Positions 42,641 to 61,688 of a stretch of 64,000 bases of DNA are shown one piece after another. The notes below the pieces were generated by a model. The model was not told the DNA's origin. It saw only the letters and a list, made by a program, of their open reading frames with translations, and made no database searches. Source of the stretch: Nostocoides sp. F2B08 (GTDB taxonomy: Bacteria > Actinomycetota > Actinomycetes > Actinomycetales > Dermatophilaceae); NCBI RefSeq assembly GCF_009184895.1, contig NZ_WESE01000002.1, positions 558,001-622,000 of the forward strand, written 5' to 3'. Made by a program: the position numbers and the translations under genes. The stretch's first letter is position 1; each line of letters starts with the position of its first letter.

Positions 42641-42716
42641 GGGGCCTTGGCGCAATTGGTAGCGCACCTGCTTTGCAAGCAGGGGGTTACGGGTTCGAGT
42701 CCCGTAGGCTCCACCA
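42641..42716 (+). tRNA. tRNA-Ala (anticodon TGC), CCA encoded
   Basis: Acceptor GGGGCCT pairs with AGGCTCC (one G-T). Anticodon loop TTTGCAA; T loop GGTTCGAGTCC; discriminator A and CCA at 42713-42716. It lies at the boundary of the foreign-looking island, a usual integration target. Confidence 0.95.
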
Positions 42717-42921: not shown

Positions 42922-44727
42922 ATGTGCATCGAGGGGTCGACGCCAAGCTCACCTTCGGCTGACAGCTTCGTCCCCGTCGCACCCGATGCCGTCAGAGTCT
43001 GCTCCGGCGACTGCCAAGAGGCGAAGCCAAGCACGGCGTTCCCAATTGGAAATGGGCTGACGGGTGCCAGGTCGAGCGAGTGTAGGTCCTGCCGCGACAA
43101 GCGGATCAGAACTGGGGTCGGAGGGAGTGACGGCGACGACGCGATAGGTCACTATCGGTCTGGTGGCCGGAGAGAGACGCTTCGCGTCCAGCGCCAGACG
43201 GTCAGGGAGGCGGTCACGCAAGTAGTCAAGACGCACGCCGGGGTAGCCATGACCATCAGGCAGATATACAAAGAGGTCTTGGACTTGCTCGATATTGTCC
43301 CCCATGAGATCGATGTAAAGAAGATTCTCCGGGACCTCGAAAAGGAAGAGCCTTATCTCCTGAAGGTGGGTCGAGACGCCTACGCCTGGGATCCGGAGGC
43401 GGCCAGCGAAAGTGCGGTGGAACAGTACCGGATCAAAGAGACGCGACGAGTCCAGCGCCAAGCGGTCATTGACACGGTCTCCCATGTGCTGAGCACGCAC
43501 GTCGGCGTAGCGATGACCATCAGGCGAGTCTACGAAGAGGCAGTGCGTCTGCTTGATTTTGTTCCCCCTGAGGGTGATGTGCGGAAGGTCCTAAGCGATC
43601 TCGCCAAATCAGATCGCCGTCTCGTGAGGGCGGGCCGAGACGCCTACCTGTGGGCTCCCGACGGCAAGATTGGCCAGCTTCAGCCGGTTGGACCAAGACA
43701 GACTCTTCGAGTCCAGCGCCAGGCGATCAGTAACGCGGTCTCCGAGGTGCTGAGAACGCGCCCCGGGATAGCTTTGACGATTAGCGAGATATATGAAGAG
43801 GCTGTGAATCTGCTCGAATTTACCCCCGCTGAGAGCGATGTGCGGAGGATGCTAAAGGACCTCGCCAAGTCAGAGCGATACTTGGTGAAGGTCGGTCGAG
43901 ACGCTTACGCGTGGGCTCCCGACGGAGTCATTCCTCCCCGGCCGGCGCCGCCACATGTGGTCGGCATGATCGAGCGACGGTGGCGGGGAGACACCCTCGA
44001 CGAGATCGGCCAAGCGTTCGGGGTGACCCGTGAACGGGTTCGGCAGCTGCTCAAAAAGTACGGCGGCCCGAGTTGGGCCGAGGTGCGTCGTCTCCAAATT
44101 GAACAGGCCGAAGGGGAAGAGCGGGCTCGGCAAGAGGCGGTCGCGACGAAGATCCGCACCCTTCTCGCCGGCGCGGGTGCGACGACACCAGAGGATGTGG
44201 CAGCCAAGACGGGGCTCGATGCCGCGGACGTGTCCAAGTTCTGGCCAACCGATCTAGTCCACTTGCGGTTGTGGGGCCATGGGTCCCACGAGAGTCGATG
44301 GTCTGATGAGGAGATCCTTGAGGTCATCCGTGAAGCGGCGATCTACGAGTTCCCACTGACGGCAAACGGTTATGCAGAACTGCTAACAGTGGGTCAGGTG
44401 ACTGGCCCATCGCTGCCAAGAGTCAGCCAAAGATTCGGATCCTGGAGCGCAGCCTGTGATGCGGCGGGCGTGGTATCGGGACAGACTTACCGTCCCCACT
44501 ACGAATCTCAATGGGGAGACGAAGACATCCTGAGCATAGTCCGGGCCTACCTTGAAGATCCGACAGCGCCGAACTCGATCCAGGGCTATGACGTGTGGAA
44601 ACGGGCCAATGCACCGGACGGACCATCTGGTCAGACCATCAGAAACAGATTCCGATCATGGACGGCGGTCAAACGACTTGCGCTGACCACCTCTTCGATC
44701 GCCCGGGAGGAACCTACCCATGAATGA
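42922..44727 (+). CDS. DNA-binding protein with three winged-helix-like repeats and HNH-type repeats
   Basis: A 601-residue protein, first of the restriction-type cluster. The N-terminus has a zinc-type C-x3-C...C-x2-C (CSGDC, CRSC) as in HNH-associated proteins. Three near-identical 87-residue modules start at nucleotides 43174, 43438 and 43699, each reading TLRVQRQ, a helical part, then LVKVGRDAYAWAPDG. Next comes a sigma-region-4-like helix-turn-helix (LDEIGQAFGVTRERVRQLLKK). The end carries two homing-endonuclease-associated (HNH_repeat) modules (WSDEEILEVIREA; RFGSWSAACDAAGV). No HNH catalytic core is seen, so target recognition or regulation is more likely than cutting. The start is uncertain (TTG 42886, GTG 42910 or ATG 42922). 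Its stop overlaps the Z1 gene start. Confidence 0.7.
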   Translation: MCIEGSTPSSPSADSFVPVAPDAVRVCSGDCQEAKPSTAFPIGNGLTGARSSECRSCRDKRIRTGVGGSDGDDAIGHYRSGGRRETLRVQRQTVREAVTQVVKTHAGVAMTIRQIYKEVLDLLDIVPHEIDVKKILRDLEKEEPYLLKVGRDAYAWDPEAASESAVEQYRIKETRRVQRQAVIDTVSHVLSTHVGVAMTIRRVYEEAVRLLDFVPPEGDVRKVLSDLAKSDRRLVRAGRDAYLWAPDGKIGQLQPVGPRQTLRVQRQAISNAVSEVLRTRPGIALTISEIYEEAVNLLEFTPAESDVRRMLKDLAKSERYLVKVGRDAYAWAPDGVIPPRPAPPHVVGMIERRWRGDTLDEIGQAFGVTRERVRQLLKKYGGPSWAEVRRLQIEQAEGEERARQEAVATKIRTLLAGAGATTPEDVAAKTGLDAADVSKFWPTDLVHLRLWGHGSHESRWSDEEILEVIREAAIYEFPLTANGYAELLTVGQVTGPSLPRVSQRFGSWSAACDAAGVVSGQTYRPHYESQWGDEDILSIVRAYLEDPTAPNSIQGYDVWKRANAPDGPSGQTIRNRFRSWTAVKRLALTTSSIAREEPTHE

Positions 44728-46768
44728 AGTCGAGCGGCTAGATGCGGTCCTAGCGTCGGGGATCGACGATGAGACACGCAATGGGATATGGGCGTCTGTC
44801 CAGGCGATTCTTCAGCGAGGGCCGAAGGAAGGGATGAAGACTGGGGAGACAGTGCTCGCGCTGGGCTATGTTCAGTCGGGAAAGACAACGTCGATCACAG
44901 CACTTGCAGCCGCTGCGGCTGATGACGGCTACCAGGTCATTGTCGCTTTGCTTGGATCGACGAACCTTCTACTCGACCAGAACAGCGAGCGCTTGGAGGC
45001 CTCCCTAGGCATCACTACGAGGTCCGACTATGTCTGGATCAGCGAGACGAACCCGTCGAGCGAAACGGCCGGCAAGAAGCTCCGTAAGTTCGTCGACATG
45101 GGACGCGTCTGCTTGGTACCGGTGCTCAAGCACGCAGGACGGATCCGGGCGGTGGCCAAGCAGTTGGAGAAGATCCCTGATGACGTCCGCGTTCTGATCA
45201 TTGACGACGAGGCGGACCAGGCATCCCTCAATACGAGCAAAGCCGCCGAGAGCAGCACCTACGCCGCCATCCGAGAACTGCGGAAGTCAGTGCCTAGCCA
45301 TCTTTACGTACAGTACACAGCGACCCCCTATGCGCCCCTGCTGCTGGACGCCGCCGACATCCTTAGTCCGCAGCATGTAGAGTTCCTGGCGCCCGGGCTG
45401 GGGTATACGGGAGGAAAACAGTTCTTCATCGACAACGCAGATCGTGTTGTGCGGAACGTGCCGCTGTTGGACGAACAGGCATCGAAGACGCCCCCCCTTC
45501 AGCTTCAGAAAAGCCTGTACCAGGCCTTGTCCGCCTTTCTCGCAGGTTCCGCCTTGCTCCTGCTGCATGATGCCGCAAGCCCTCCGATAAGTATGCTGGT
45601 GCATTCTACTGCGCGGAATGACGTCCAAGCACGGTATGAATTTCTGATTCGCCGACAATTGGAGCAGTGGCGGAAGTCGATCGCGGCTGACGACATCTCC
45701 AGTGTCCCTGATGTAATACTCGAGGAACGCAAGCGCCTTGTCGTCAGCGGGGCTGCAGACATAGATGACTACACTTTTCTTCACAAGTTGAAGTTCGTTC
45801 TCTCCCAATCGATGACGTGGCTCGTTAATAGTGCGGCCGACGTCAATAAGGTGGACTGGCACGTCTCGCCAATTCACATCCTGGTGGGTGGCAATAAGCT
45901 AGACCGTGGCTTCACTGTTGAGGGCCTGACTGTCACGTACATGAATCGCCCAGCTAGCCCTCAAGTCGACACGCTGGAACAGCGTGCCCGAGCGTTTGGG
46001 TACCGTGGCGACCTGCTGCCTTATTGTCAGTTTTTTGCAAGCAAGAAGACTGTGCGTTCTCTGACGGAGGTCGTTCATACAGAGGAGGACCTGCGTGCGC
46101 GACTTCGCGATCACGTCGAGAGTGGTGGTTCTGTTCACACGTGGGCGCGTGAGATCGGCCTGCTTCTGCCGGACGGAATGAAGCCAACACGTGCGAGCGT
46201 CGTGAGCGCGCTGTCGGTGATGGGATTGGGCTGGCATCAGATGCGAACCCCCTCTCGCTTGGCGGGGGACACCACCCACAACTACGAGTTGCTCGCGGAC
46301 ATCGGCTTGACCGACGCGCCTCGCGTCCCACAGGGCCGGCTGGCGTTCCGCACTCTTTACGTTGACTCCCTGTCCTCCATTAGGTCCTTGCTCGACGGTT
46401 GGGCCCGTCCGACTTATAGCCCAGGCTGGCTCCACGAGGAGTTCACCGACGCGGTGGTACGAGGCTTCGAGCATCACAAGAAGGCCACTGTCATGCTCAT
46501 GGAGGACGGCGGAAGTCCACGAACCCGCAAATGGTCCGGCGAGCTCGGTTTCGTGAATCTCTTCCAGGGCCGTGACCTCAAGCCACAGCCAAATGGTGAC
46601 TTCTATCCTGGCGACCGGCTTGTCGAGAACCTAGAGAACGAGCCCAACCAAATCCTCATTCAGGTTCATCGCACCAACGTACGGCAACATGAAGATGCTG
46701 GCGAGGTACTGGCCCTGGCGATTTACCTCGGCTCCGGCCTTGTAGTTCGAAAGGAATCTAATGTCTGA
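44720..46768 (+). CDS. Z1-domain ATPase
   Basis: A 682-residue protein of the Z1 family, a superfamily-2-like ATPase found in restriction-modification-type operons. Walker A GYVQSGKTT (residues 49-57), Walker B IDDEAD (161-166), motif YTATP (199-203), then VGGNKLDRGFTVEG and a QRARAFGYR arginine-finger motif. Probably the DNA-translocating or remodelling motor of the system. It overlaps both neighbours by 8 bases, so the genes form one tight operon. Confidence 0.85.
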   Translation: MNEVERLDAVLASGIDDETRNGIWASVQAILQRGPKEGMKTGETVLALGYVQSGKTTSITALAAAAADDGYQVIVALLGSTNLLLDQNSERLEASLGITTRSDYVWISETNPSSETAGKKLRKFVDMGRVCLVPVLKHAGRIRAVAKQLEKIPDDVRVLIIDDEADQASLNTSKAAESSTYAAIRELRKSVPSHLYVQYTATPYAPLLLDAADILSPQHVEFLAPGLGYTGGKQFFIDNADRVVRNVPLLDEQASKTPPLQLQKSLYQALSAFLAGSALLLLHDAASPPISMLVHSTARNDVQARYEFLIRRQLEQWRKSIAADDISSVPDVILEERKRLVVSGAADIDDYTFLHKLKFVLSQSMTWLVNSAADVNKVDWHVSPIHILVGGNKLDRGFTVEGLTVTYMNRPASPQVDTLEQRARAFGYRGDLLPYCQFFASKKTVRSLTEVVHTEEDLRARLRDHVESGGSVHTWAREIGLLLPDGMKPTRASVVSALSVMGLGWHQMRTPSRLAGDTTHNYELLADIGLTDAPRVPQGRLAFRTLYVDSLSSIRSLLDGWARPTYSPGWLHEEFTDAVVRGFEHHKKATVMLMEDGGSPRTRKWSGELGFVNLFQGRDLKPQPNGDFYPGDRLVENLENEPNQILIQVHRTNVRQHEDAGEVLALAIYLGSGLVVRKESNV

Positions 46769-47879
46769 GTCGGTACCGATCAGTGCTGGGCGTGTGGGGA
46801 AGGCTCCCCTTTCGGCGCTTCGGCTTGATCCCGAGAACCCCCGGATTCCCGAAACCCACCGCACCAAGGACACCGCTGAACTAGCGACTCTACTCGAAAT
46901 GGGGTTTGAGGCGTACACTGTGGCCCAATCCATCGTCGAATTGGGCTTCTTCAATGCTGAACCCCTCATTGTCATTCCGTCACCCGATGAGGCTGGCGCT
47001 TGGATTGTGGTGGAAGGCAACCGACGGCTGACTGCATTGATCGGCCTGGCGTACCCAGAGATTCGAGCTGGGTTCGCGACACCCGATCGATGGGAGGTTC
47101 TCGCCACGAAGCGGTCTATAAGCGCCGACATGGTGGTTCCCATTGTCATCCACGAGTCAAGGGCGACTACGCACGCCGAAATTGCTCGAGTCCACGTAGT
47201 CGGCAAACTTGGGTGGCGCCCCTTCATGCAGGCTCGCTACATCGCCGCTCGTGTGGCTGAGGGCCGCACCCTCCAAGAGGTTGCCGATCTAATCGGCATC
47301 CCGAGAAGCAAGGCGGCAGACCTCTATCGTGATCAGGCGGTCCTGACCCAGGCCGCGAAGCTCGGGCTCGAGACCTCGCAGGTTGAGAGTGCGTTCTCGC
47401 TGCTGACGGTGGCGATGGGTAGCACGAAGATTCGGAATCACGTCGGTGCCCCCTTGGGGTCACAGACGGTACTCGGCAAGGATCCGGTGCCCGCCGACAA
47501 GGCAGAGGAGCTCAGGGAAGTCATCCAGTGGGTGTTCGGAGACGAGGAGCACGAGTCTCGGATCTCGGACTCACGCCAGATCTCGCAACTCGGAAATGTG
47601 ATCGCATCCGAGGTTGGACTGGCGGCGCTGCGTGAAGGGAAGACCCTGGAGGAGGCAAAGCAGCGCATTCAGGAGAAGGGTCTGGACCCCTTGAAGGCCC
47701 TCACGTTGAAACTCAACGCGGCGAAGAACTCGCTTTACGCGGCCAGCAGCGATGTCGCCGAGTTCGCCATGGACCTTGATGTTCAGAATCTCGTCGATGA
47801 CATCGAGTCGCTCGTGGGGAGCATTCGCTCGACGCTAGACGATGTCGAGGCGGAGTCAGGCCAGTCGATCGATGACTGA
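46761..47879 (+). CDS. ParB/Srx-like nuclease-fold protein
   Basis: A 372-residue protein with an N-terminal ParB-like domain: LDPENPRIPE, then the phosphate/nucleotide motif VVEGNRRLTALI (residues 83-94) in the place of ParB GERR. A helix-turn-helix follows (TLQEVADLIGIPRSKAADL) and the C-terminus is helical. Stand-alone ParB-like proteins in defence islands may bind CTP or act as nucleases. It overlaps the Z1 gene and the next gene by 8 bases each. Confidence 0.75.
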   Translation: MSESVPISAGRVGKAPLSALRLDPENPRIPETHRTKDTAELATLLEMGFEAYTVAQSIVELGFFNAEPLIVIPSPDEAGAWIVVEGNRRLTALIGLAYPEIRAGFATPDRWEVLATKRSISADMVVPIVIHESRATTHAEIARVHVVGKLGWRPFMQARYIAARVAEGRTLQEVADLIGIPRSKAADLYRDQAVLTQAAKLGLETSQVESAFSLLTVAMGSTKIRNHVGAPLGSQTVLGKDPVPADKAEELREVIQWVFGDEEHESRISDSRQISQLGNVIASEVGLAALREGKTLEEAKQRIQEKGLDPLKALTLKLNAAKNSLYAASSDVAEFAMDLDVQNLVDDIESLVGSIRSTLDDVEAESGQSIDD

Positions 47880-48747
47880 TCTCGAGGTCTCGAGCACGGA
47901 GGCCATCGCGGACTGGATCGAGACGAGCGTGTTTGTCAGTAGCTCGGGTCACTTCGGGCGCGACAAGGTGGATGACCTTGCGACAGCGGAGATCAGTGCG
48001 CCAGCGATGAAGGTGTCGATGGCGCTCGAAGTGATGGCGAAGCGGGCGAGCATTTTGGGCGACGCCTATCCTTTCGTCGTCCGCGACATCGCGGTTCTTC
48101 GCAGGAAGAGCCCTCTGGCTAACCAGTACGCTGCTTTGCTCTACCTAACGCCCGGATCAGTAGCGCGCCAGACGGTCCGGGTGTCGGAGACTGCGGAGAT
48201 GGGGGAGCTCCTGGAGGAGGTAGCCGAGGCGGCGCTGGCCAACTTCTGGGGCGCGGGTGGGTGTGCGCTGTCTTTCGGATACCCATCGAGGCACGGGCGC
48301 CCTGAGTCGTTCGATCAGGCGGTCCGTTGGTTGGCTGGCAGGATGGGCCTGGAGCCTGGCCGGGGCTATCGCCCGCCTCGACGCAAAGACGGTGGCGTTG
48401 ATGTCGTCGCCTGGCGCCAGTTCGCAGATCGCCGGCCCGGTTTTCCCGTGGCCCTCGCGCAGTGCACGATCCAGGCGGAGACCTTCACTAAAACCACCGA
48501 CATCGACCTTCGACTGTGGTCTAGCTGGCTCGCAATGGACAGCGATCCACTCAGCCTGCTGGTGATTCCAGGAACGATCCGATCAGCGGGCCCTAACTGG
48601 AAGCAACTCACCACGGTCGTCATGGTTATCGACCGGGTGCGACTCATGGATCTCCTCAGTCGAGAGCCCGGGAGTTCAGGTGACCTGGCCTGGGTGGACG
48701 CGACCACATCATCGCTGAGGACGGCTCTTAGGGCGGCGGAACTGTGA
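47872..48747 (+). CDS. PD-(D/E)xK-like restriction endonuclease candidate
   Basis: A 291-residue protein. The stretch KDGGVDVVAW ... FPVALAQCTIQ (residues 172-201) has the Asp, spacing and Q-C ending of a PD-(D/E)xK core. The N-terminal 130 residues are helical. In an operon with Z1 and ParB-like genes and beside a cytosine methyltransferase it is the best candidate for the cutting subunit. The ATG at 47872 overlaps the previous stop. The next gene starts in its stop (GTGA). Confidence 0.65.
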   Translation: MTDLEVSSTEAIADWIETSVFVSSSGHFGRDKVDDLATAEISAPAMKVSMALEVMAKRASILGDAYPFVVRDIAVLRRKSPLANQYAALLYLTPGSVARQTVRVSETAEMGELLEEVAEAALANFWGAGGCALSFGYPSRHGRPESFDQAVRWLAGRMGLEPGRGYRPPRRKDGGVDVVAWRQFADRRPGFPVALAQCTIQAETFTKTTDIDLRLWSSWLAMDSDPLSLLVIPGTIRSAGPNWKQLTTVVMVIDRVRLMDLLSREPGSSGDLAWVDATTSSLRTALRAAEL

Positions 48748-49025
48748 CCACCAAGGCCGACCTCGTCTGGACTATCGCCATCAGAGTAGGCGTCGAGCCC
48801 CCAAGAATGTCGACTGGATCAACTGAGCCTCGAGAGATCTTCGAACTTGTCAACGAGAGTCTTGGCCTCGGCATCGACGACAGTCTCACTAAACCCGACG
48901 TGGCTCGCCAGATCGTCGAGGCCGCGGGCATCCCCTGGAATGCACACTACGAGTCGAGCGGAGGCACCGTAACGAAGGTTGGCCTCGAGGCAGTGCTCAG
49001 GGCGGTCGAGCACTTCGTTGCCTGA
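48744..49025 (+). CDS. small protein of the restriction cluster
   Basis: A 93-residue protein of unknown family, GTG start in the previous stop. Helical pattern, with LTKPDVARQIVEAAG and SSGGTVTKVGLEAVLRAVEHF suggesting a small winged-helix-like DNA-binding domain. Last gene of the rightward operon; converges on the methyltransferase with 13 bases between stops. Confidence 0.65.
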   Translation: MTTKADLVWTIAIRVGVEPPRMSTGSTEPREIFELVNESLGLGIDDSLTKPDVARQIVEAAGIPWNAHYESSGGTVTKVGLEAVLRAVEHFVA

Positions 49026-49038
49026 CTGTCCGATCTCC

Positions 49039-50439
49039 CTACCCCGCGGCCCTACGACTGTTGTTCCTCCCGCTTCGACGACGCACGATGACTTCTCGAC
49101 TCGAATCCCAATGGCGCTCAACTGCAGTATCCGGGCTGAGGTGAGATCGCTCGACGGCCGCCGCTAGGCCGGGAGCGCGACGCCGGACCGCAGCCAGCGT
49201 ATGCAGGACGTGTTCACGAAAGACGTGATAGGCGGCCCCAACGTTCACCCCATTGCCCATTTGCTTATAGGTCGCTGCGTCTGGTTGATCGCCGAAGTCG
49301 AACCACTCGGGCAGGCCTTGGAGCCGGGCAGCCTCGCGAGGTGAGATTCGACGCATCCGATCACCAAGGATGCTTGTCTGCGTGATGGCTACGAGAGCCG
49401 GAACATATGTCGCCTGCTTTACCCTCAGCCCAGATGGACGCAGGTGCATTACCGTCTCGCTAAGCGAATCGGCCTCCTGAGCCTGCCACTCGAACTTCCG
49501 CCTGGATGGCGGAAAGTCACGGAGGTAGTCCCATCGGGCTAGCCATGCCTCGAGTAGTTCTCGATGCTCGGTGTAGAAGGCCGAGTTCTTGCGGAGGAAC
49601 GTGGCCTTCCATGCCGCAGTCCCCGGAGGAACTACGAGATCGTCCTGGTGGATGAACGCGTCAACCCATACCGGGAAGCCAGGGAGCTTTTTGACGCCCG
49701 CGGACCGGAGTGTCGTCACGAAGTCGTTCCAGGCCTCGACCCACGTAGTCTCTGCGGGAGCAAGGTTGAGGCGAAGCCTGTCTCTGAGGTCGGACTCCGA
49801 CTGAATCGGCAGGTCTGCGTCCAGATTCCAGCCGGATGGAGACCAGTCGTCGACCGGCTGATGCGGAACCGAGGGGGCGACGTCCTCATGGGAGCGGCTC
49901 ACTCCGAAGTACGTTGCCATGATGAACACCCGCTCGCGGATCTGGGGTCGTCCGCCCCGCTCCGGCGGCAATAGATGGGGAGAGAACACGATGGGGCGGG
50001 ACGATACTTGATAGCCGAGTTCGCGGAGCGAGCGGATGATCACTGCCCACTCGTGCTTGTGCCTCGGACCGTAGATGTTGCGCACGTTCTCGAGCATGAC
50101 GATCGTGGGACGTCGGACTTCCAGGATTCGAAGAATGTTCCAGAACAGAGTGCCGCGGGCCTCATCCATTCCGTGCTGCAGACCAGACTTCGAGAATGGC
50201 TGGCACGGGAACCCGGCGGCGAGCACGTCGTGCGCCGGAACCAACATGGTGGGGTCAGTGTCATTCACGATGTCCCCGAGCGCAGGCCTCCTCCAGTTGC
50301 GTTCATAGACAGCCGCAGCCTCAGGGTCCTTCTCAACTGCATAGACGCACTTGCCGCCCACGGCACCTAGGGCGGCGTGGAACCCGCCGACACCCGCGAA
50401 CAGATCGACGAAGGTGAAGGGGGGGGAGTCCGGACTCAT
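49039..50439 (-). CDS. DNA (cytosine-5) methyltransferase 1
   Basis: A 466-residue 5mC methyltransferase. Motif I FVDLFAGVGGF (residues 10-20), motif IV GFPCQPFSKSG (Cys79), motif VI ENVRN, motif VIII QIRERVFIMA, motif X YKQMGNGVNVG. A long variable region (about 180-370) would recognise the target. The ATG at 50439 is chosen; the in-frame upstream 32 codons are low in complexity. Faces the Z1/endonuclease operon and is divergent from vsr. Confidence 0.93.
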   Translation of the reverse strand: MSPDSPPFTFVDLFAGVGGFHAALGAVGGKCVYAVEKDPEAAAVYERNWRRPALGDIVNDTDPTMLVPAHDVLAAGFPCQPFSKSGLQHGMDEARGTLFWNILRILEVRRPTIVMLENVRNIYGPRHKHEWAVIIRSLRELGYQVSSRPIVFSPHLLPPERGGRPQIRERVFIMATYFGVSRSHEDVAPSVPHQPVDDWSPSGWNLDADLPIQSESDLRDRLRLNLAPAETTWVEAWNDFVTTLRSAGVKKLPGFPVWVDAFIHQDDLVVPPGTAAWKATFLRKNSAFYTEHRELLEAWLARWDYLRDFPPSRRKFEWQAQEADSLSETVMHLRPSGLRVKQATYVPALVAITQTSILGDRMRRISPREAARLQGLPEWFDFGDQPDAATYKQMGNGVNVGAAYHVFREHVLHTLAAVRRRAPGLAAAVERSHLSPDTAVERHWDSSREVIVRRRSGRNNSRRAAG

Positions 50440-50732
50440 GTTCGCCAGCTTAGCTGATGCTTGAGCTATCCCGCCGGAACCGCCGTGTTGGCGCCCACCC
50501 CCGGTTCGGGGGGCCCTCCTAGGAGTTGTCATCATGGCGCATCCTTATCAGTTCGTTGCTCAGGATCTGGATCGTAGGTGTGACGTCCGACAGCAGGTAC
50601 GCAACCCAGGTCCCCGGTCACGGTGACGGCGGATCAATCACGAGCGGCGAACTGGCAAGCACAAGGATCCACGAGAAAGGTAGAGCAGATTGCCGGTTGG
50701 CGGTCTTTACCTAGTCTCTGCGTAGCCTCAAC

Positions 50733-51200
50733 ATGCATGATGTACCGGTGACCGCCGAGTACAAGCCTTGGGCGTCATCTCCGCGCGTCCGCGCCGCGAT
50801 GCGGGGAAATCGTCGGCGCGACACACGACCTGAACTCGCAGTTCGTCGGGCGGTGCACGCCCTTGGGTTACGGTACCGGGTCGATGCTCGGCCCCTTGCC
50901 GACCTCAATCGCCGCGCGGACTTGGTCTTCCCTCGCGCCAAGGTCGCTGTCTTCGTGGATGGTTGCTATTGGCACGGATGCCCGGTGCACGGCACTGTGG
51001 CCCAGACGAACGCTGCCTACTGGGATCAGAAGATCCGCCGTAACCGTGAGCGAGATCTTGAAACCGATACGGTGCTGGCTGAACGGGGGTGGACTTCGCT
51101 ACGCGTGTGGGAGCACGAGCTGCCCGCGGAGGCAGCGACGCGGGTCTTCTCTGCCGTGATTCTCGCCCGCTCCGCTTCCGTCCGAGCAAAGTCCGACTAA
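50733..51200 (+). CDS. vsr: very short patch repair endonuclease (Vsr)
   Basis: A 155-residue mismatch endonuclease that nicks T:G mismatches made by deamination of 5mC. Motifs RRDTRPELAVRRAVHALGLRYR, DLVFPRAKVAVFVDGCYWHGCP and RNRERDLETDTVL. It regularly accompanies a cytosine methyltransferase. The 293-base gap between it and the methyltransferase holds no gene; divergent promoters should be there but none is clear. Confidence 0.93.
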   Translation: MHDVPVTAEYKPWASSPRVRAAMRGNRRRDTRPELAVRRAVHALGLRYRVDARPLADLNRRADLVFPRAKVAVFVDGCYWHGCPVHGTVAQTNAAYWDQKIRRNRERDLETDTVLAERGWTSLRVWEHELPAEAATRVFSAVILARSASVRAKSD

Positions 51201-51267
51201 GGCGCCAGGACACGAGCCGAGCCCCGTGAGAGAGTTATGCCAGGCCCTCGGAGGGACGGAACCACAC

Positions 51268-51732
51268 GTGGAAGACACACTCGTTGTACTCAAGCCGGAC
51301 GCCCTGAGCCGCGGTTTGGTTGGGCGGATCCTTCAAAGATTTGAAGACGCGGATCTTGCATTGATTCAGGCCGAAACGCGATCGCTCGATCCTGGATTCG
51401 TCCGTCAGCACTACCACGATCTTGAAGAGCGGCGCGGCCGGCTAGCTATGGAACTGACGGAGCGGTATATGATCTCCGGTCCCGTCATGGCCTGCCGCCT
51501 CCGGGGGGCGGAGGCTGTCCGCAATTGCCGGCGACTCATTGGCCCGACCATGCCGATAGAAGCGCCGCCGGGGACAATCCGGGGAGACTTCGGGCACGTT
51601 TCGGAGGAAGCCTCGATGACCGCTGGCGTGGCTGTGATGAACTTGGTGCATGCGTCCGGTAGCCCCAACGAGGCGAGGTACGAGCTAAGTCTGTGGTTCC
51701 CCACGCATATCGACCGCTCTCCCCGGGACTAG
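51268..51732 (+). CDS. nucleoside-diphosphate-kinase-like protein
   Basis: A 154-residue NDK-fold protein. TLVVLKPDALSRGLVGRILQRFE, the PGTIRGDFG loop and the catalytic-His motif NLVHAS are present. The canonical NVVHGSDS becomes NLVHASGS, with Asp replaced by Gly, and spacing in the Kpn-loop region differs from housekeeping NDK. The GTG at 51268 is chosen because the family begins just before TLV.LKPD; a GTG at 51226 is the alternative. It converges on the ITPase-kinase gene, overlapping its stop by 4 bases. Either a divergent kinase or a nucleotide sensor. Confidence 0.75.
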   Translation: MEDTLVVLKPDALSRGLVGRILQRFEDADLALIQAETRSLDPGFVRQHYHDLEERRGRLAMELTERYMISGPVMACRLRGAEAVRNCRRLIGPTMPIEAPPGTIRGDFGHVSEEASMTAGVAVMNLVHASGSPNEARYELSLWFPTHIDRSPRD

Positions 51733-53354
51733 GGGCGTTCCATCAATTCAAGGTAAGCCATGCCGGCATCGGTGATAGACCAACGCACGCGACCCGTGGG
51801 CGGGTCGTCCCGAATGGTGGTGTTTCTTGCGAAGTCGAGGATACGCGAGGCGTTGTGATCTCCTAGGCCCTCCGCCTCCTCCAGCTCGGGGAGGGTCAAG
51901 GGACCGCGGTCTCTGAGCAACGCGAGACATCGAGATAAGCGAGTCCTGCGCTCCCTAAGGGAGCGATCCCTCTCCGGTTGCCGCAGATTGCCTCTAGTCT
52001 GTCGGCGATCCGCCGGCCGTAAAACGTTTCCACTGAGCACGTACTCGTTCCAAATGTCGGAGACCATTGCCATGTACTCCTCGAGAGAACCATTGTTCTC
52101 GATGGTCAAGTCGCAGATATCCCGGGCGACGGGTAGCAATCCGAAGTTGTGTTGCGATCGGTCGCGCTGGGCGAAATCGTGCTTGGATCGCACCTCCTCG
52201 CCCCGCTTCCGCACCAGGTAGCGTTCATATCGCATATTGAATGGAGAAGAGATATAAATGACTTTTGACTCGGGGAAGGACCTTAGCATGGTTCGCAGTT
52301 CTTCAAGAGTCCGGAGTCCAGTGATGATGTGTGGATCTCGCTCCATCTCGTCTTTACGATGTTCGACGATGTACTGAGCGATCGCGTCCATACCGAGTTC
52401 TTCAAGAACAGAAAGTGCGTGAGCCGCAGGGTCTGTCGCCCGATCAGGAAAGATTGACGAGCTCTGCTCCGCCAGAGGAGCGAGGAGGCTGCTGGCCTCA
52501 ACATGTTGGGCGTCGCCGTGCACCGTCGCGATGCGAGCAAAGGTGGTCTTCCCCGCACAACTCTCACCGATAACGATGAGTGGAGCTCTTGGCAACTCTC
52601 CGACGGGGGGCAGCAGCGGCAATTGTACGGCGTCCTTCAACGCTGCTACGCGGGGGCTAGCGCGCCGGTAGGCTTGTGAGGGAAGGTTGAGCACCGCTGC
52701 GTACTCCCGGACGCGGGCGAAGAGCGAATTAAGGGACTTCGCTCGGAAGTCGTACAACAGGCTTTCCTCATAATCCATCTGACCTAGCGCAATATCAACC
52801 CCATCCGGCGCGAACCAACCGTTGAACGTGCTGGTGGTGAGCCATGTGTACAGCGGATGGGATCGAGGCGGAGGCTCTCGCATGACCACTGATCCGCGGG
52901 TCTCCCCATGAAAGAACACCGGCTCTCTATGGCCTGGGATGCTCAGTGCAATATCTGAACGCACGGTGACCGCACGGGAACTACCAGCTGCTTCCAGTTC
53001 GCTCGCCAATTTGGCAAAGGTCGTCGAACTGAACCATTCCTTGGTAGACAAGCCAGGATAATCCCCCTCAGGCGAACTTAGCGCATCAATGCGAACCGTG
53101 GTGTCTTCGACAAACACAAGAGCACTACGGCCAGCCGCTCGCACGGCGTGCCCAAGCGCTTTTGCGAGCATCTCGCGGGGCTTCAACTCGTAGTCCTCGT
53201 CATAAGGCTCGGATCCAGCCAAGAACTGTGTCAGCCGCACGTTGGCGTCTTGCGCAAGGATTCGCGCCTGTAGGAACTTCTCGGTGTTCGATGTGTGGAA
53301 GTACAGCACTGGTTCACGGCGACCAGAAGCCGGAAGAGACCGTGTATTGGCCAA
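51729..53354 (-). CDS. fusion: ITPase (HAM1/RdgB)-like domain, P-loop kinase-like domain, winged helix
   Basis: A 541-residue protein. Residues 16-225 resemble HAM1/RdgB NTP pyrophosphatases: FHTSNTEKFLQA near the start, VFVEDTTVRIDAL (catalytic acidic pair) and GDYPGLSTKEWF. A P-loop domain begins at GESCAGKTT (263-271), as in NMP and dephospho-CoA kinases, with KVIYISSPFNMRYERYL later. The last 80 residues look like a winged helix (LPELEEAEGLGDHNASRIL). I know of no described protein with this order. TTG start after GAGGG; 13 bases after the GHMP-like gene stop. Likely converts or senses an unusual nucleotide. Confidence 0.65.
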   Translation of the reverse strand: MANTRSLPASGRREPVLYFHTSNTEKFLQARILAQDANVRLTQFLAGSEPYDEDYELKPREMLAKALGHAVRAAGRSALVFVEDTTVRIDALSSPEGDYPGLSTKEWFSSTTFAKLASELEAAGSSRAVTVRSDIALSIPGHREPVFFHGETRGSVVMREPPPRSHPLYTWLTTSTFNGWFAPDGVDIALGQMDYEESLLYDFRAKSLNSLFARVREYAAVLNLPSQAYRRASPRVAALKDAVQLPLLPPVGELPRAPLIVIGESCAGKTTFARIATVHGDAQHVEASSLLAPLAEQSSSIFPDRATDPAAHALSVLEELGMDAIAQYIVEHRKDEMERDPHIITGLRTLEELRTMLRSFPESKVIYISSPFNMRYERYLVRKRGEEVRSKHDFAQRDRSQHNFGLLPVARDICDLTIENNGSLEEYMAMVSDIWNEYVLSGNVLRPADRRQTRGNLRQPERDRSLRERRTRLSRCLALLRDRGPLTLPELEEAEGLGDHNASRILDFARNTTIRDDPPTGRVRWSITDAGMAYLELMERP

Positions 53355-53367
53355 TTTCAGTCACCCT

Positions 53368-54351
53368 CTACGAAGTTAGGCCACAGTTTCTGGCAAAGGT
53401 CCAGTGCACTCGGCTCGAGTGTTCGGTCGCCGTCTCCATGATGTGATGTATGGCCGATTCATCCGATTCCCGGCATATAGCAAAGACCAGCGGCCCCACG
53501 GAGCTCATACTGCAAGCCACCCCGTCGTGCGCCTCGAGCTTTGTCAGGCTCTGCCTGACGACTTCATGCTGTGACGCTACCTCAATGCGCTTGAAGGCAT
53601 TACGTCGCAACGAGTGGAGCCCATCCCGGAACAACTCGAACTCGGAAGAAGCGACTCCCGCAAACACTTGGTGGTACGCAGCCGCGATTGAGGTGCCTGC
53701 CTCCCGGCTGTCGATCGACCGCGCGGCCGCCGAGAACAGTTGGACCTCTTCCCGCTGCGCGAGCACGTACCCCATCGGGAGGTCTAGCAGCGCGATACGC
53801 CAAGAAGCTGGATAGGCGTGGTGAGCAGCGAGTAGAGGGATGTCGCTTTGACGTCCGAGCGAGGAGGGTCCTAGCCGAGTCCTGGCAGGGTGACCGGCGT
53901 CGAGAACGAGTCCACCAGTCCGGTAGCCGTGGACACCAACACCACTTGCGCCTCCGCGGCCGGAAAGACGAGCCAACTCGTCGTGGTACGGCTCACGGCC
54001 GTTTGACCTGTACACCGCCTCGGCAATGGCAAGTAGAAGCGCGGACTTACTCCCATAACCTCGGTGACTTGGCGGGCGGTGAACGACTTCGATCCTCCCG
54101 TTGAGTCGATCCCCAATGTGACTCTCGAGTCGGTCAAGTAGGGCTCCAACCTGGCAGTGAGCAGAGTCGTCAAGAGGAGTGGCCGACACTATGGCGAGTT
54201 CTTCAGCGGAGGTATGCCACCTCACGAGCGTGCTGGGGCTGTCAAGCATCACCCCGACGCCACCGTAACGTCGTCCAAAATGAGCGGGCAGATCGAGAAG
54301 GCCAAAATGCAAGCGCGAAGCGGCATTGACAACGCCCTCAGCGGAATACAT
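53368..54351 (-). CDS. GHMP-superfamily protein, beta-RFAP-synthase-like
   Basis: A 327-residue protein like beta-ribofuranosylaminobenzene 5'-phosphate synthase, a GHMP-fold enzyme of methanopterin synthesis that joins phosphoribosyl pyrophosphate to an aromatic acid. Seen: ASRLHFGLLDL and RRYGGVGVMLDSP at the N-terminus, the P-loop-like PPSHRGYGSKSALLLAIAE (91-109) and GRGGASGVGVHGYRTGG. No other pterin genes are present, so a different ribosyl or nucleotide reaction is likely. ATG at 54351, two bases after the previous stop; a GTG at 54387 would overlap it. Confidence 0.65.
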   Translation of the reverse strand: MYSAEGVVNAASRLHFGLLDLPAHFGRRYGGVGVMLDSPSTLVRWHTSAEELAIVSATPLDDSAHCQVGALLDRLESHIGDRLNGRIEVVHRPPSHRGYGSKSALLLAIAEAVYRSNGREPYHDELARLSGRGGASGVGVHGYRTGGLVLDAGHPARTRLGPSSLGRQSDIPLLAAHHAYPASWRIALLDLPMGYVLAQREEVQLFSAAARSIDSREAGTSIAAAYHQVFAGVASSEFELFRDGLHSLRRNAFKRIEVASQHEVVRQSLTKLEAHDGVACSMSSVGPLVFAICRESDESAIHHIMETATEHSSRVHWTFARNCGLTS

Positions 54352-54353
54352 GG

Positions 54354-55142
54354 TCACGGCGCTGGCCGCGAGTTCTCGTCGGACCACAGCTGCTCGAAAT
54401 GGTCCATGAGCCGATCGAACAGAAAACCGTCGCCGACCAGAAGCGTGGGAGTCCTCCTTGATGGCTGATGCAAAAGATAGGGGCCAAAGAACATCGAGCT
54501 ATCGACTCTGAAAATATTCACGCTGGGCATGGTCCGATAAAGCCGCACAGTGAAGTTGGTGTTGCTGTTCCGCAGTGCTTGAGTCTCGTCCAGGAATTGC
54601 CTAACCTCGGCACGTATCGTTCCAAGATTGGCGCCCTCCTCCCGGTCCCTGGCATCTGCATAGGACGACTTCTCATCGGGCGCGTCGGGATCGAGCAGCA
54701 GAACGCGAACGTTACAGCGTTTTGCCCACTCATCGAATGATCCGGAGAAGTCTTGACGCAAACTGTTCAGTCCGAATCCCAAGATGTCGATCTGACGGCT
54801 GGCGTAACGCAGGCGGTCTTCATACTCCGACCGAATAGAGACGCTACGAGTCGCAAAGATTGAGTGCAGACCGGACCGCTCAAGCGACCTTTGGCGCTGA
54901 GCTCGCCCTTCCTCAAGCAATACATGGAAGAAGGCAACGAGGCCCGCGATACCGGTAGCAATCAGCCCAGTGCCGACGGCCGTCCACGCGGCACCTTCGA
55001 TTGACAGCATTATGCCGCCAGCCATTGCGATGACAATCTGGACCAAGAAATAGACCGGGTTTGAGGAACGAGTCGCATTGCGCCAGGCTGCTCGCATTGT
55101 CCGCCCCAAGGTGGACGTGACCTTCATCATCCCACCAGCCAT
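54354..55142 (-). CDS. two-helix membrane protein with PLD-like C-terminal domain
   Basis: A 262-residue protein. Two membrane helices (about 29-48 and 52-75) are followed by a cytoplasmic domain: YASRQIDILGFGLNSLRQDF, VRVLLLDPDAPDE, MPSVNIFRVDSSMFFGPYLL and a C-terminal HFEQLW. The pattern recalls phospholipase-D-fold proteins without a clear HKD motif. Small two-helix proteins with a cytoplasmic sensor or enzyme domain are common effectors in defence systems. The ATG at 55142 has AAAGG seven bases upstream. Confidence 0.6.
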   Translation of the reverse strand: MAGGMMKVTSTLGRTMRAAWRNATRSSNPVYFLVQIVIAMAGGIMLSIEGAAWTAVGTGLIATGIAGLVAFFHVLLEEGRAQRQRSLERSGLHSIFATRSVSIRSEYEDRLRYASRQIDILGFGLNSLRQDFSGSFDEWAKRCNVRVLLLDPDAPDEKSSYADARDREEGANLGTIRAEVRQFLDETQALRNSNTNFTVRLYRTMPSVNIFRVDSSMFFGPYLLHQPSRRTPTLLVGDGFLFDRLMDHFEQLWSDENSRPAP

Positions 55143-57215: not shown

Positions 57216-58473
57216 ATGCCCGAGCCTACGTTGTGCTGCCGTGTGCCCGGCGCCTACTGCGACCGTTGTGACCTGCTTGTCGGGCTGCCTGGGCTGCGCG
57301 TGATCGGGGTCGAACGTGACGGCCGTGACTGCCTGGTGGTCACGGTGGAGTCGGCCGCGGAGCCGATGGGGTGCCGCTCCTGCGGGGTCATCGCGCGAGG
57401 GCATGGCCGGGTCGACGTGCACCTGGTCGACGCGCCCGCGTTCGGGCGTCCGGTGCGGATCGTGTGGCGCAAGCGCCGCTGGTTGTGCCCGGACCCTGGC
57501 TGCGAGGTCGCCTCGTTCGTGGAGCAGGACGAGCGGGTCGCGTCCGCGCGGGCGGTGATGACGAGGCGGGCGTGCTGGTGGGTGATCGAGCAGATCCGCC
57601 GAGAGCACGCCTCGGTCAACGGGATCCGGCGTCACCTCGGGACGGGTTGGCGCACGGTGTGGGAGTCGATCAAGCCGCTGCTGCAGGCCGCCGCCGACGA
57701 CGAGTCCCGCTTCGAAGGGGTCACCATCCTCGGGGTCGATGAGCACGTGTGGCACCACGCGTCCACCAAGGCGATCGAGGACGGCGGCCGGGGCCCGAAG
57801 GAGCTGACCGGGATGGTCGACCTCACCCGAGATCCCAACGGACACATCAAGGCTCGACTGCTCGACCTGGTGCCGGGCCGGTCCGGGGCGACGTACCGGC
57901 AATGGCTCGACCAGCGAGGTGAGGCGTTCCGCTCGAGCGTGCAGATCGCGACGTTGGACCCGTTCCACGGGTACAAGAACGCCATCGATGACCAGTTGCA
58001 GGACGCCCGCTCGGTCCTTGACGCGTTCCATGTCGTCAAGCTCGCCACGCAGGTGGCGAGGACGTCCGCCGGCGGGTGCAGCAGGACACCACCGGTCACC
58101 GCGGCCGCAAGAACGACCCGCTGTACCGAATCCGCAACATCCTGCGCGCCGGGCAGGACCGGCTCACCGACCGGCAGCTCGCCCGGCTCCACGCCGCGTT
58201 CACCGCCCGGGACGAACACGTCGAAGTCGAACTCGCCTGGCAGTGTGCCCAACAGGTCCGCTCCGCTTACCACCAGCACACCCACGCCGCCGGCCGTGCC
58301 ATCGCCGAGAAGATCGTTAACACCTTCGCCTCCTGCCCGATCCCGGAGATCGCTCGTCTCGGGCGAACACTGAAGCAGTGGCGATCAGAGTTCCTCGGCT
58401 ACTTCGACACCGACGGCGCGACCAACGGCGGAACCGAAGCCATGAACGGACTGATCGAGCTCCACCGCCGCAT
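57216..58473 (+). pseudogene. ISL3-family transposase, 5' part (frameshifted and split)
   Basis: N-terminal zinc-finger-like CRSCG and CPDPGC, a helix-turn-helix region and the DDE residues ILGVDEHVW and ATLDPFHGYKNA are in frame to about 58053. Near 58054 one base is missing (GTGGCGAGGAC where GTGGTCGAGGAC is expected), and the rest (QQDTTGHRGRKNDPLYRIRN ... GTEAMNGLIELHRRI, with the third catalytic Glu) continues in another frame. The gene is cut at 58473 by the inner transposon. Adding the 3' part and the missing base gives exactly 450 codons. Not functional as it stands. Confidence 0.9.
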
Positions 58474-58478
58474 ATCGG

Positions 58479-58490
58479 TTAACCGGCCCT
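58479..58490 (+). repeat. left terminal repeat of the inner transposon
   Basis: TTAACCGGCCCT, exact inverted match to 61700-61711. Confidence 0.8.
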
Positions 58491-58584
58491 GCCTGGGGCG
58501 GCACGCCATGGGTGTGCGGGTCCCCGATTGTGGTGCCTGGCAGGTGAATGCTCGAGGTGGGCCTTCTGTGTGGAGGTGTCGAAG

Positions 58585-59649
58585 ATGGGTCTGCAGGTGC
58601 ACGACGGACCGGGCGGGCATGTGCTGCTCGGTCCCGGCGAGGATGTCGAGCTGGCGAACCGGTTCCTGGCGCACCTGTCCACGCGGTGTTTCGCGCCGGC
58701 CACCCGGCGGGCGTACGCGTACGACCTGCTCAGCTTCTTCAGGTTCTGCGACGAGCGGGATCTGACGCTGGCAGCGGTGCAGCCGATGGACGTCTTCGAC
58801 TTCCTTGCCTGGCTCCAACGGTCTTCGCCCGCGAGCCCGGATCGGGTCGTGGTGCCGCTGCGGGCCGTCCGCGGGGCGGCTCCTGCGACGATGAACCGGC
58901 GGATCGCTGCACTGCGCGGGTTGTTCGAGTTCGCGGTGGTCACCGGCGCCCGCTCCTCGAGCCCGGTCCCGACGGCAAGGACGAGCAGCAGCGTGCGGGC
59001 CCGTCGAGGCCTGCTCGGGCACCTCCGCTCTCCGGGCCGGTCAGTCGGTCAGGGGCGTCTGGTGCGACAGCCTCGCCGGCTGCCGGAGTCGTTACCAGCG
59101 CACGAGGTCGCCGCCTTCATCGCCGACCTGGGCACCGCCAGGGATCGTGCGATGGCGCTGCTGATGCTGCTGGGCGGGCTGCGCTCAGGCGAGGTGCGAG
59201 GTCTGCTGCTGCGCGACGTGGACATGGGTCTTCGCCGGGTCCTGGTCCTCGGCAAGGGCGGCAAGGAGCGGGTCGTGCCGGTGGACCGGGCGTTCTTCAC
59301 CGAGCTGGCCTGCTACCTGCGCACCGAACGCCCTCCCGGATGCTCCACCGCGGAGTGCTTCGTCGTCTTGCGTGGCCCCACCCGTGGGGCGCCGGTGACC
59401 GAGGCCGGGCTGCGACACATCTTCCGGATCCACCGCGACCGGGCTGGCGTGCCCAGGGTCCGACCGCATCGACTCCGGCACACCTACGGCACCGAGCTCG
59501 CCTCAGCCGGGATCGATCTGGTCGTCCTGCGCGATCTGATGGGACACGCCAGCCCGGAGACCACCGCCGGGTATGTCCACCTCTCCGTGGAGACCGTCGC
59601 GAATGAGTACGCCAAGGCCCGCCAGGCCCTGAGCGCGGCTGGGTCATGA
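58585..59649 (+). CDS. tyrosine recombinase (Tn554 TnpA-like)
   Basis: A 354-residue integrase. An N-terminal SAM-like core-binding domain (FAPATRRAYAYDLLSFFRFC) precedes a catalytic domain with Arg in LLGGLRSGEVRGL, Lys in GKGGKERVVP, HRLRHTYGTE, and His/Tyr in LMGHASPETTAGYVHLS, so all catalytic residues are present. The ATG at 58585 follows GGAGG by 8 bases. The stop overlaps the next start (ATGA). Confidence 0.9.
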   Translation: MGLQVHDGPGGHVLLGPGEDVELANRFLAHLSTRCFAPATRRAYAYDLLSFFRFCDERDLTLAAVQPMDVFDFLAWLQRSSPASPDRVVVPLRAVRGAAPATMNRRIAALRGLFEFAVVTGARSSSPVPTARTSSSVRARRGLLGHLRSPGRSVGQGRLVRQPRRLPESLPAHEVAAFIADLGTARDRAMALLMLLGGLRSGEVRGLLLRDVDMGLRRVLVLGKGGKERVVPVDRAFFTELACYLRTERPPGCSTAECFVVLRGPTRGAPVTEAGLRHIFRIHRDRAGVPRVRPHRLRHTYGTELASAGIDLVVLRDLMGHASPETTAGYVHLSVETVANEYAKARQALSAAGS

Positions 59650-61688
59650 CGCCCACCACGCCGCTGTTGTCCCTGGTCACGGCCACACCACAGGTCAGCG
59701 AGCCGGTATCGCCGCGCCCGGCGCCACGACTGTCGGCGGGTGAGGCACGGGATTGCCTGCAGCCGGCGCGGCTGTTGGCCGAGCACAGCGCGTACGTCGC
59801 GACGCTGGGCTGCAACCAGCAGTCCAAACGGTCACGTCGGCGCGCGGCTGAGCAGCACCTGGCAGCCTTCGTCGACCTGACGGTGTGGATGCAGCGGCCC
59901 ACCGCGACCCGGGTGGCCGAGGCGCGCCGGTTCGGGTCCTGGCCGTTCCTGTCGTGGTGTTTCGCCACCGGGCGGCTGCGCCCGGACGTCGAGCTGCTCG
60001 TCATCAAGGCCAAGGGCGCCCACTTCACGACCTGGGCGAGCCTGCACCAACGCGACGTCGACCGGGCGATGGCCGCGTCCCTGGCGCTGGGCTGGTGCGA
60101 AGAGTGGTGCCAGCAGGTCTCGGTCGCCGGGCTGGCGCTGGTGTGCATGACCCGCGGGATCGTCCTGGAGCAGCTCACCGAGGAAGACCTGCGGGCCGTG
60201 TGGGCCACGATCGAGGACTCGCCGATCCTGGCCGAGGTGACCCGCAAGCCACTGCGCGGCAGGCTTTATGGGCTGTCCATGCTCGGCTACCACCTCGGGC
60301 TCCTCCCGCACCCGCCGAGGCACCCGAACCGGCGCGCCACGACCCTGGCCGACCGTCTCGCGCCGGTGCCGCAGCCGCTGATCCGTGCCGCGATGCTGCG
60401 CTACCTGAACGTCCTGTCCACCACCCGCCGGCCCAAGACCGTCATCGAGCGGGCCGCGTGCTTCGTGGTCTTCGCCCAGTGGCTGGCCGAGCATGACCCG
60501 CAGGTGAACAGCCTGCGAGCCCTCACCCGCGTCCACCTCGAGGACTTCTTGGCCTGGCACGCCACCCGGGGCTGGCTCGGGCGAGTCGCCCGGGACCAGC
60601 ACATCTCCAAGGCCAGGCACCTGTCCGCGGTGGTCAACCTGCGCGTCTTCTTCGACGACATCACCTTGTGGGGCTGGTCCGAACGGCCACCCACCCCGGT
60701 GCTGCTGCGCTCGGACCTGCCCCGCCTGCCCGCAGCCCTGCCTCGAGCACTCACCGCCGACCAGGACCGGGCCCTGATGGCCGCGGTGCACGAGCTGGAG
60801 GACATCCCGGCCCGGGTCGGGGTCATCCTGCTGCGCGGCAGCGGGATCCGCATCGGCGAGCTGCTCGACCTTGAACTCGACTGCCTGTGGGAACTTCCCG
60901 GGCACGGCACCTGGCTCAAGGTGCCCCTCGGCAAGCTCGACACCGAACGCGTCGTTCCGCTCGACGAACCCACCCTGGCCGCCCTCCACGAATGGCTCGC
61001 CGTACGCGGAGCCCACCGCAGCCTTCCCCACCCGCGCCAGCCGCGAGACGCCGACTTCCTCTTCGTCACCGGCGGCCACCGGATGGCCGCCGCCCGGATC
61101 CGCCGCGGCCTACTCGACGCCGTCACCGCCTCAGGACTGACCGGCATCGACGACACCCCCTTGACCGTGACCCCGCACCAGCTGCGGCACACCTACGCCA
61201 CCGAGCTCATCAACGCTGGCATGAGCCTGCAATCGCTGATGATGCTTCTCGGACACGTCACCCCGGAGATGACGCTGCGCTACGCCCGCCTGGCCAACTC
61301 GACCCTGCGCACGGCCTACGACGACGCCCTGGCACGCATCCACACCAGCACGCCGCTGCCGCTGGTCATCGACTCCCGACCACCGCTGCCGGAGCCCGGT
61401 CAGTGGCTCCAAGCCGAGGCCATCAAGACCCGGCTGTCCGGCGGCTACTGCACCCGGCCCACCGCAGCCGGCGCGTGCCCCTACGCCAACATCTGTGAGC
61501 AGTGCGACAACTTCACCACCAGCGCCGCCCTGCTGCCCGTCCTCTCGGAACAGCTCCGCGACGAGCACGCCCTCCGCGACGACGCCCACCAGCGAGGCTG
61601 GACCAGCGAGGCCAAGCGACACGAGCTCGTCATCCAAGCCCTCAACGGACACCTCGACCGGGCACCCCACCTCCACCCGAACCCTTGA
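59646..61688 (+). CDS. tyrosine recombinase (Tn554 TnpB-like)
   Basis: A 680-residue integrase. Catalytic residues: GSGIRIGELLDLE, GKLDTERVVPL, HQLRHTYATELI and LLGHVTPEMTLRYARL. A C-terminal Cys cluster (YCTRPTAAGACPYANICEQC) resembles the zinc-type tail of TnpB recombinases. Translationally coupled to the first recombinase. Apparently intact, so the inner element may still be able to move. Confidence 0.9.
   Translation: MTPTTPLLSLVTATPQVSEPVSPRPAPRLSAGEARDCLQPARLLAEHSAYVATLGCNQQSKRSRRRAAEQHLAAFVDLTVWMQRPTATRVAEARRFGSWPFLSWCFATGRLRPDVELLVIKAKGAHFTTWASLHQRDVDRAMAASLALGWCEEWCQQVSVAGLALVCMTRGIVLEQLTEEDLRAVWATIEDSPILAEVTRKPLRGRLYGLSMLGYHLGLLPHPPRHPNRRATTLADRLAPVPQPLIRAAMLRYLNVLSTTRRPKTVIERAACFVVFAQWLAEHDPQVNSLRALTRVHLEDFLAWHATRGWLGRVARDQHISKARHLSAVVNLRVFFDDITLWGWSERPPTPVLLRSDLPRLPAALPRALTADQDRALMAAVHELEDIPARVGVILLRGSGIRIGELLDLELDCLWELPGHGTWLKVPLGKLDTERVVPLDEPTLAALHEWLAVRGAHRSLPHPRQPRDADFLFVTGGHRMAAARIRRGLLDAVTASGLTGIDDTPLTVTPHQLRHTYATELINAGMSLQSLMMLLGHVTPEMTLRYARLANSTLRTAYDDALARIHTSTPLPLVIDSRPPLPEPGQWLQAEAIKTRLSGGYCTRPTAAGACPYANICEQCDNFTTSAALLPVLSEQLRDEHALRDDAHQRGWTSEAKRHELVIQALNGHLDRAPHLHPNP

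Follow-up and report, generated by a model that had tools for sequence, protein, structure and literature searches.

The Z1 proteins of the CglI and NgoAVII restriction-modification (R-M) systems provide the biochemical precedent for a Z1 protein as the ATPase partner of a separate nuclease, and these Z1-type systems have no GHKL ATPase (PMC4267653). A core consisting of Z1, a PD-(D/E)xK protein and a 5mC methyltransferase (MTase) was described by Miller et al., 2022 (PMC9523054). The window, which is the whole stretch of 64,000 nucleotides of Nostocoides sp. F2B08 DNA analysed here, carries an operon encoding A613, a Z1 protein, a ParB-like protein, N301 and S93, next to genes for a 5mC MTase and Vsr. 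It shares with CglI/NgoAVII a 5mC MTase, a separate nuclease and a Z1 helicase in the absence of a GHKL ATPase, but the nuclease of those systems is a PLD-B3 protein, whereas the window has a predicted winged-helix PD-(D/E)xK protein together with ParB, A613 and S93, and no PLD or B3 domain was matched in its operon by Pfam. The putative Z1-DUF4420-5mC MTase system of Miller et al. (PMC9523054) and the MZA system (MzaABCDE) are likewise encoded by operons of the defence type that contain Z1 and a cytosine MTase; however, the window has no DUF4420/MzaD, GHKL/MzaB or AIPR/MzaE, neither GHKL nor AIPR being matched among its proteins by Pfam or PADLOC, and its Z1 scores 104 bits against an MzaC cut-off of 1500. 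The MORC/paraMORC-Z1-RE-fold operons (Iyer et al., 2008, PMC2292703), the type to which the closest Z1 sister clade belongs, resemble the window in an SF2 helicase with a Z1-type C-terminal domain, a 5mC MTase and Vsr, and differ from it in the GHKL ATPase and its RE-fold partner, which the window lacks.

Two further systems resemble the ParB side of the locus. PD-lambda-5 (Vassallo et al., 2022, PMC9519451) pairs a ParB-like protein with a DNA MTase, and the N-terminal domains of the two ParB-like proteins are homologous (E 2e-19), with the match limited to residues 17-189 of the window protein; in contrast, PD-lambda-5_A is ~470 aa long with another C-terminal part, its MTase is Dam-like (m6A) and N301 is missing, while no PD-lambda-5_B was found at the window locus. 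The gp98-gp96-mth genes of phage WPhi encode a ParB-like protein, an N301 homologue and a 5mC MTase, but form a phage cassette without Z1, A613 and S93.

Locus layout and island setting

An earlier note on this DNA, made from the sequence alone, had described five overlapping rightward genes facing a 5mC MTase with a divergent vsr. The coordinates of the five genes (Table 1) bear this out, with overlaps of 8, 8, 8 and 4 bases in gene order, and both further genes were recovered by gene calls, Pfam and TIGR00632, the MTase being convergent with the S93 gene across a gap of 13 bases and vsr divergent from the MTase. The MTase motifs PCQ, ENV and RxQxRxR are intact, as are the catalytic motifs of Vsr. 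The A613 gene starts with an ATG at 42922, with GAGGAGGGGG ~12 bases upstream. The mechanical ORF of N301 begins at 47842 (301 aa), but its nearest homologues are 291 aa long, so that the ATG at 47872 is probably the true start; residue numbers given below for N301 follow the 301-aa ORF.

Table 1. Features of the operon, its neighbours and the island borders in window coordinates.
Feature	Position	Strand	Basis
tRNA-Ala, left edge of low-GC island	42641..42716	+	ARAGORN
A613, DNA-binding accessory protein	42922..44727	+	Pfam, repeats visible in sequence
Z1-family SF2 helicase/translocase, 682 aa	44720..46768	+	Pfam Z1 3.6e-35
ParB-like protein	46761..47879	+	AF2 model, PDB matches, conservation
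N301, winged-helix and predicted PD-(D/E)xK nuclease	47872..48747	+	AF2 model, fold matches, conserved residues
S93, 93-aa R-M-associated domain, proposed target-recognition element	48744..49025	+	MTase-family linkage
C5-cytosine DNA methyltransferase (M)	49039..50535	-	Pfam DNA_methylase 5.6e-68
Vsr very-short-patch endonuclease	50733..51200	+	TIGR00632 121.6 bits, cut-off 97.85
ISL3 transposase and two tyrosine integrases, right edge of island	57216..61688	+	Pfam

A613 consists of an N-terminal zinc-finger-like CxxxC...CxxC segment and three winged-helix-like repeats, with a sigma-70-r4-like HTH (Pfam Sigma70_r4, 3e-8) and an HNH_repeat match (1e-5). HNH_repeat is a homing-endonuclease-associated repeat; A613, called an HNH-repeat protein in the earlier note, is not an HNH nuclease, no HNH nuclease domain being found by the Pfam scan. 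Conservation of A613 is confined to the last ~250 aa and the number of upstream repeats varies among relatives, while in four loci (L078, L080, L081 and L083) its core and Z1 form a single fusion protein, with the core at the N-terminal end. The Z1 motifs GYVQSGKT, DDEAD and QRARAFGY are intact, and a search by sequence found no PDB homologue of Z1.

The GC content falls from ~0.69 to 0.60 right after the tRNA-Ala gene, downstream of a gyrA-like gene, and rises again at ~56.5 kb, where the transposase and integrases sit. Because of this GC shift at the tRNA and these mobility genes at the far border, the operon is assigned to a horizontally acquired gene island; no exact copy of a tRNA-derived att repeat of at least 20 bases was found at its right end. 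A second 5mC MTase lies in the same island (55237-56307, minus strand), with no evident partner system; it belongs to a type that also accompanies many other Z1 operons (phmmer down to 3e-45). Between the two MTases (51226-54387) are an NDK-like kinase, a Ham1-like/AAA-ATPase fusion and a GHMP kinase, an unusual nucleotide-metabolism-like set for an acquired island.

Recurrence of the operon and partners of Z1

The same gene order was recovered in ~16 relatives. Scanning the genome collection with the ParB alignment yielded 307 relatives and 80 loci, and the window gene order recurs in actinobacterial loci L072-L087, a few of them contig fragments, from Nocardioidaceae, Aeromicrobium, Ornithinimicrobium, Microbacterium, Microlunatus, Curtobacterium, Sanguibacter, Actinotalea, Cellulosimicrobium, Promicromonosporaceae, Cellulomonas, Acidimicrobiaceae and others. 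Most of these window-type operons have a 5mC MTase beside them and a Z1 gene that overlaps the ParB gene by a few bases. Once missed small genes are counted, S93 comes after N301 in almost every one. A613 was not detectable by six-frame HMM in L086, and the MTase is absent within the flanks of L083, whose genome encodes a 53% identical MTase elsewhere. Ka/Ks is 0.04-0.14 for Z1, ParB, N301, S93 and A613 wherever unsaturated, with MTase and Vsr diverging faster than the operon genes in some pairs. Since the same operon occurs in ~16 genomes with low Ka/Ks, the arrangement is not due to chance. A second, divergent ParB-N301 pair was observed beside a window-type operon at L083:12591-14829 and L162:10437-12630.

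The earlier note had started from the premise that Z1 operons usually include a GHKL ATPase. This is not borne out in the order, where 30 of 396 genomes have a Z1 relative and 29 loci were examined besides the window's own: an HATPase_c_3 (GHKL) gene lies within 10 kb of Z1 in 14 of the 29, a count that omits one weak, opposite-strand match, and GHKL is likewise missing from CglI/NgoAVII (PMC4267653) and from the Miller core (PMC9523054). Judged by gene content, GHKL is a frequent yet dispensable partner of Z1. A DUF4420 PD-(D/E)xK gene, on the other hand, lies within ~3 kb of Z1 in 28/29 loci; the three closest non-window-type Z1s first found (31-36% identical) belong to dcm-GHKL-Z1-DUF4420 loci. 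At the window locus the absence of a GHKL ATPase recorded in the earlier note was upheld by Pfam and a sensitive six-frame HMM, and by six-frame HMM GHKL occurs in none of the 18 closest loci. DUF4420 was found neither in the window (Pfam) nor in L072-L087 (HMM), its only occurrence among the 18 closest loci being L088, where a separate Z1 operon adjoins, and the host genome gave 0 matches in a search that was positive in 28/29 relatives. One GHKL protein over the cut-off is encoded in the host genome, on another contig and apparently in an operon of its own. L068 (G000 contig 40, ~460 kb), where a separate GHKL ATPase of at least 628 aa lies downstream of a 366-aa uncharacterised protein, is probably a further defence locus of this genome.

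In a Z1 tree, whose midpoint rooting leaves the direction of change inferred, the window-type Z1s form a separate clade beside the small Z1s of GHKL and DUF4420 loci. Together with the 0/18 count for GHKL and the lack of any PADLOC (PADLOC-DB of 2023) or NCBIfam system match to the window operon, this supports the distinct Z1 subtype proposed in the earlier note. The rare feature of window-type Z1, on present gene counts, is the loss of the near-universal DUF4420, whose place is taken by ParB-N301, and the unusual point about this family is corrected from a missing GHKL ATPase to a nuclease swap. The candidate explanation that N301 is a divergent DUF4420 was rejected, as hhalign gave a probability of 0.1% and both occur in the same locus several times. 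The locus would rank, by its predicted proteins, as a variant of Z1-associated R-M that lacks DUF4420 and GHKL and has ParB-N301, A613 and S93.

The ParB-N301 pair within and outside Z1 operons

The ParB-like protein is modelled as a ParB-CTPase fold with an HTH domain and long C-terminal helices (AF2 pLDDT 93), and its model matches KorB, Caulobacter ParB and Noc in the PDB over ~200 residues (VIA Z 11.2, 10.1 and 9.6, respectively). In the family (54 sequences), EGNRRL is invariant, as is His145 (54/54). An ungapped comparison with the Caulobacter sequence tentatively aligns His145 with the catalytic Glu of canonical P-motif 2 (ENxxR), which appears to be replaced here; nucleotide hydrolysis is uncertain. 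N301 is modelled with an N-terminal winged helix and a C-terminal REase-like domain (AF2 pLDDT 93), and was matched above threshold by neither Pfam nor NCBIfam, while its homologues had no match in PADLOC (PADLOC-DB of 2023). Most of the top matches to residues ~95-280 are REase-fold nucleases with Z values of 6-8.3, including BsaWI (7.4), FokI (7.2), SdaI (7.0) and MspJI (6.6), the last also being the top match in Foldseek. These values are middling, but because the matches are consistent and D187 (59/59), Q207 (58/59) and K217 (54/59) are conserved, N301 is predicted to be a PD-(D/E)xK-fold nuclease. K217 sits 10 residues past Q207, as opposed to 2 in Q-x-K, and owing to this displaced lysine catalysis is not certain.

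N301 directly adjoins the ParB-like gene in 77/79 loci, and the pair is found, according to record titles, in Actinomycetota, Pseudomonadota, Bacteroidota, Planctomycetota, Chloroflexota, Acidobacteriota and more phyla, in most loci without Z1. Full flanks were available for 51 loci: in 33 of them a 5mC MTase lies no more than a few genes from the pair, and 7 more have PD-lambda-5_A, with PD-lambda-5_B (a Dam-like m6A MTase) confirmed in L095. A whole MTase-GHKL-Z1-DUF4420 operon accompanies ParB-N301 in five loci (L091, L134, L136, L138 and L146), and ParB-N301 therefore joins Z1 operons repeatedly. The place given to a ParB-like protein in the operon by the earlier note stands, whereas the notion that it merely replaces GHKL fails on the co-occurrence of both in these five loci.

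A three-gene cassette of ParB, N301 and a cytosine MTase occurs in P2-like phages, as in WPhi of the laboratory strain E. coli W, in phage 12474III, where it directly adjoins the portal gene, and in Pseudomonas phage D14A. It was found in 139 of 5,426 E. coli genomes, each with all three genes as a near-complete copy of one of two versions. Both cassette proteins, the ParB-like protein and the N301 homologue, are of unknown function in PHROGs. The P2 locus has been treated as a defence hotspot (PMC9519451), and a search of open-access papers turned up none that deals with the WPhi cassette or with restriction linked to ParB at P2 hotspots. PD-lambda-5 and ParB-N301 lie side by side in L095-L106. 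In these loci and in L133, which come from several actinobacteria among others, a four-gene operon starts with PD-lambda-5_A and a Dam-like PD-lambda-5_B and continues directly with ParB-N301, so that it encodes an m6A methylase and two ParB proteins related to each other; the B protein was confirmed in L095 only.

Within the overall explanation preferred here, ParB-N301 is likely to be a separate restriction module that in the window stands in place of the DUF4420 nuclease, with GHKL absent. A more general and less probable reading is that the pair is a widespread restriction module in which a nucleotide-gated clamp would load at an unmethylated target, slide and license the nuclease; it is conceivable that this clamp module is used with a 5mC MTase as its only partner (P2-like phages), alongside an m6A MTase pair, or together with a Z1 motor as in the window. 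If true, clamp-licensed cutting would be a mechanism not described for R-M. The pair, a candidate for a widespread way of cutting foreign DNA, is a more general and more interesting find than the operon variant: an uncatalogued ParB-nuclease pair accompanies DNA MTases across many phyla and sits in a P2-phage hotspot, and the role of ParB folds outside chromosome segregation becomes directly testable.

S93, the methyltransferase and competing readings

S93 is present in 16 of the 19 loci with the window's MTase family (3 are without it) and in 0/100 loci with another or no MTase, L083 excepted, where such an MTase lies elsewhere in the genome; these counts and those that follow come from related, non-independent sequences and overstate the strength of the linkage. 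In L075 and L077 S93 is missing and a different MTase is carried. An independent S93-anchored test, in which the S93 alignment was run against 396 genomes of the order and 31 of the match regions were examined, placed the MTase family within ~10 kb in 27/31 loci, while this family is found in 39/337 genomes. With Z1 controlled, the identity of S93 still covaries with that of the MTase (partial r 0.48, permutation p ~0.004, n=13). A613 had also been considered as specificity subunit and was rejected, its divergence not tracking the MTase with Z1 controlled (partial r 0.09). The effectors associated with S93 differ, comprising DUF262-Z1-DUF4420 operons, MTaX1 enzymes, an AspBHI_N fusion and ParB-N301 alone; Pfam gave no match on the S93-fused partner proteins. 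Because it tracks the MTase family across unrelated effectors, S93 is probably a specificity element that reads the MTase target, and it offers a testable specificity-subunit candidate common to several otherwise unrelated restriction systems with the same MTase family.

Gene content, conservation, folds, fusions, module swapping and the S93-MTase linkage together point to a multi-subunit, NTP-driven R-M system, which we regard as the probable nature of the whole. Restriction, the order of its steps, nucleotide use and target site would then be as follows. The C5-MTase would mark self DNA, and Vsr would repair the T:G mismatches left by 5mC deamination. S93, with A613, would read the MTase target in its unmethylated form, and A613 may contribute DNA binding and act together with Z1. 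The ParB-like protein would load on unmethylated-target DNA and serve there as a nucleotide-gated clamp; translocation of the complex would fall to the Z1 motor and the cut to N301.

It is unlikely that the operon instead holds two independent systems, a ParB-nuclease-5mC MTase cassette and a Z1/A613 pair with a role such as helicase-based processing or regulation, which would be co-transcribed without forming one machine. The occurrence of ParB-N301 without Z1 in most loci, phages included, and its position simply following a complete GHKL-Z1-DUF4420 operon in L091, L134, L136 and L138 would suit such a division, but the window-clade Z1 is without GHKL and DUF4420 in every locus, keeps its motifs intact under strong purifying selection and, in most loci, shares a few bases with the ParB gene. 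We know of no function for a lone Z1, which also counts against two systems. An abortive or modification-dependent (Type IV-like) effector, in which the ParB-nuclease would sense foreign DNA modification or MTase inhibition and attack indiscriminately while the MTase served as guard or antitoxin-like partner, is rather improbable. The D...Q motif and fold of N301 resemble those of MspJI among others (weak sequence match, E 0.5), and PD-lambda-5, with its related ParB domain and MTase, was called a compacted RM+Abi system by its discoverers (PMC9519451); however, a 5mC MTase in cis at most loci would make a 5mC-dependent nuclease self-destructive, and both Vsr and the S93-MTase linkage are in keeping with site-specific methylation and recognition of the ordinary kind. 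A decayed remnant or chance cluster in a mobile island, as a low-GC island beside a tRNA gene with an IS transposase and integrases might suggest, is very improbable given that all frames and catalytic motifs are intact, that Ka/Ks stays low (0.04-0.14 where unsaturated) and that the same gene order is found in many genera.

Another Z1 subtype was observed in L176, L178, L180, L181, L183, L184, L186, L187, L189, L191 and L060. Here S93 forms the N-terminal part of a fusion with a DUF262 (GmrSD_N) protein, Z1 and DUF4420 come next, and GHKL is missing, its position being taken by the DUF262 protein.
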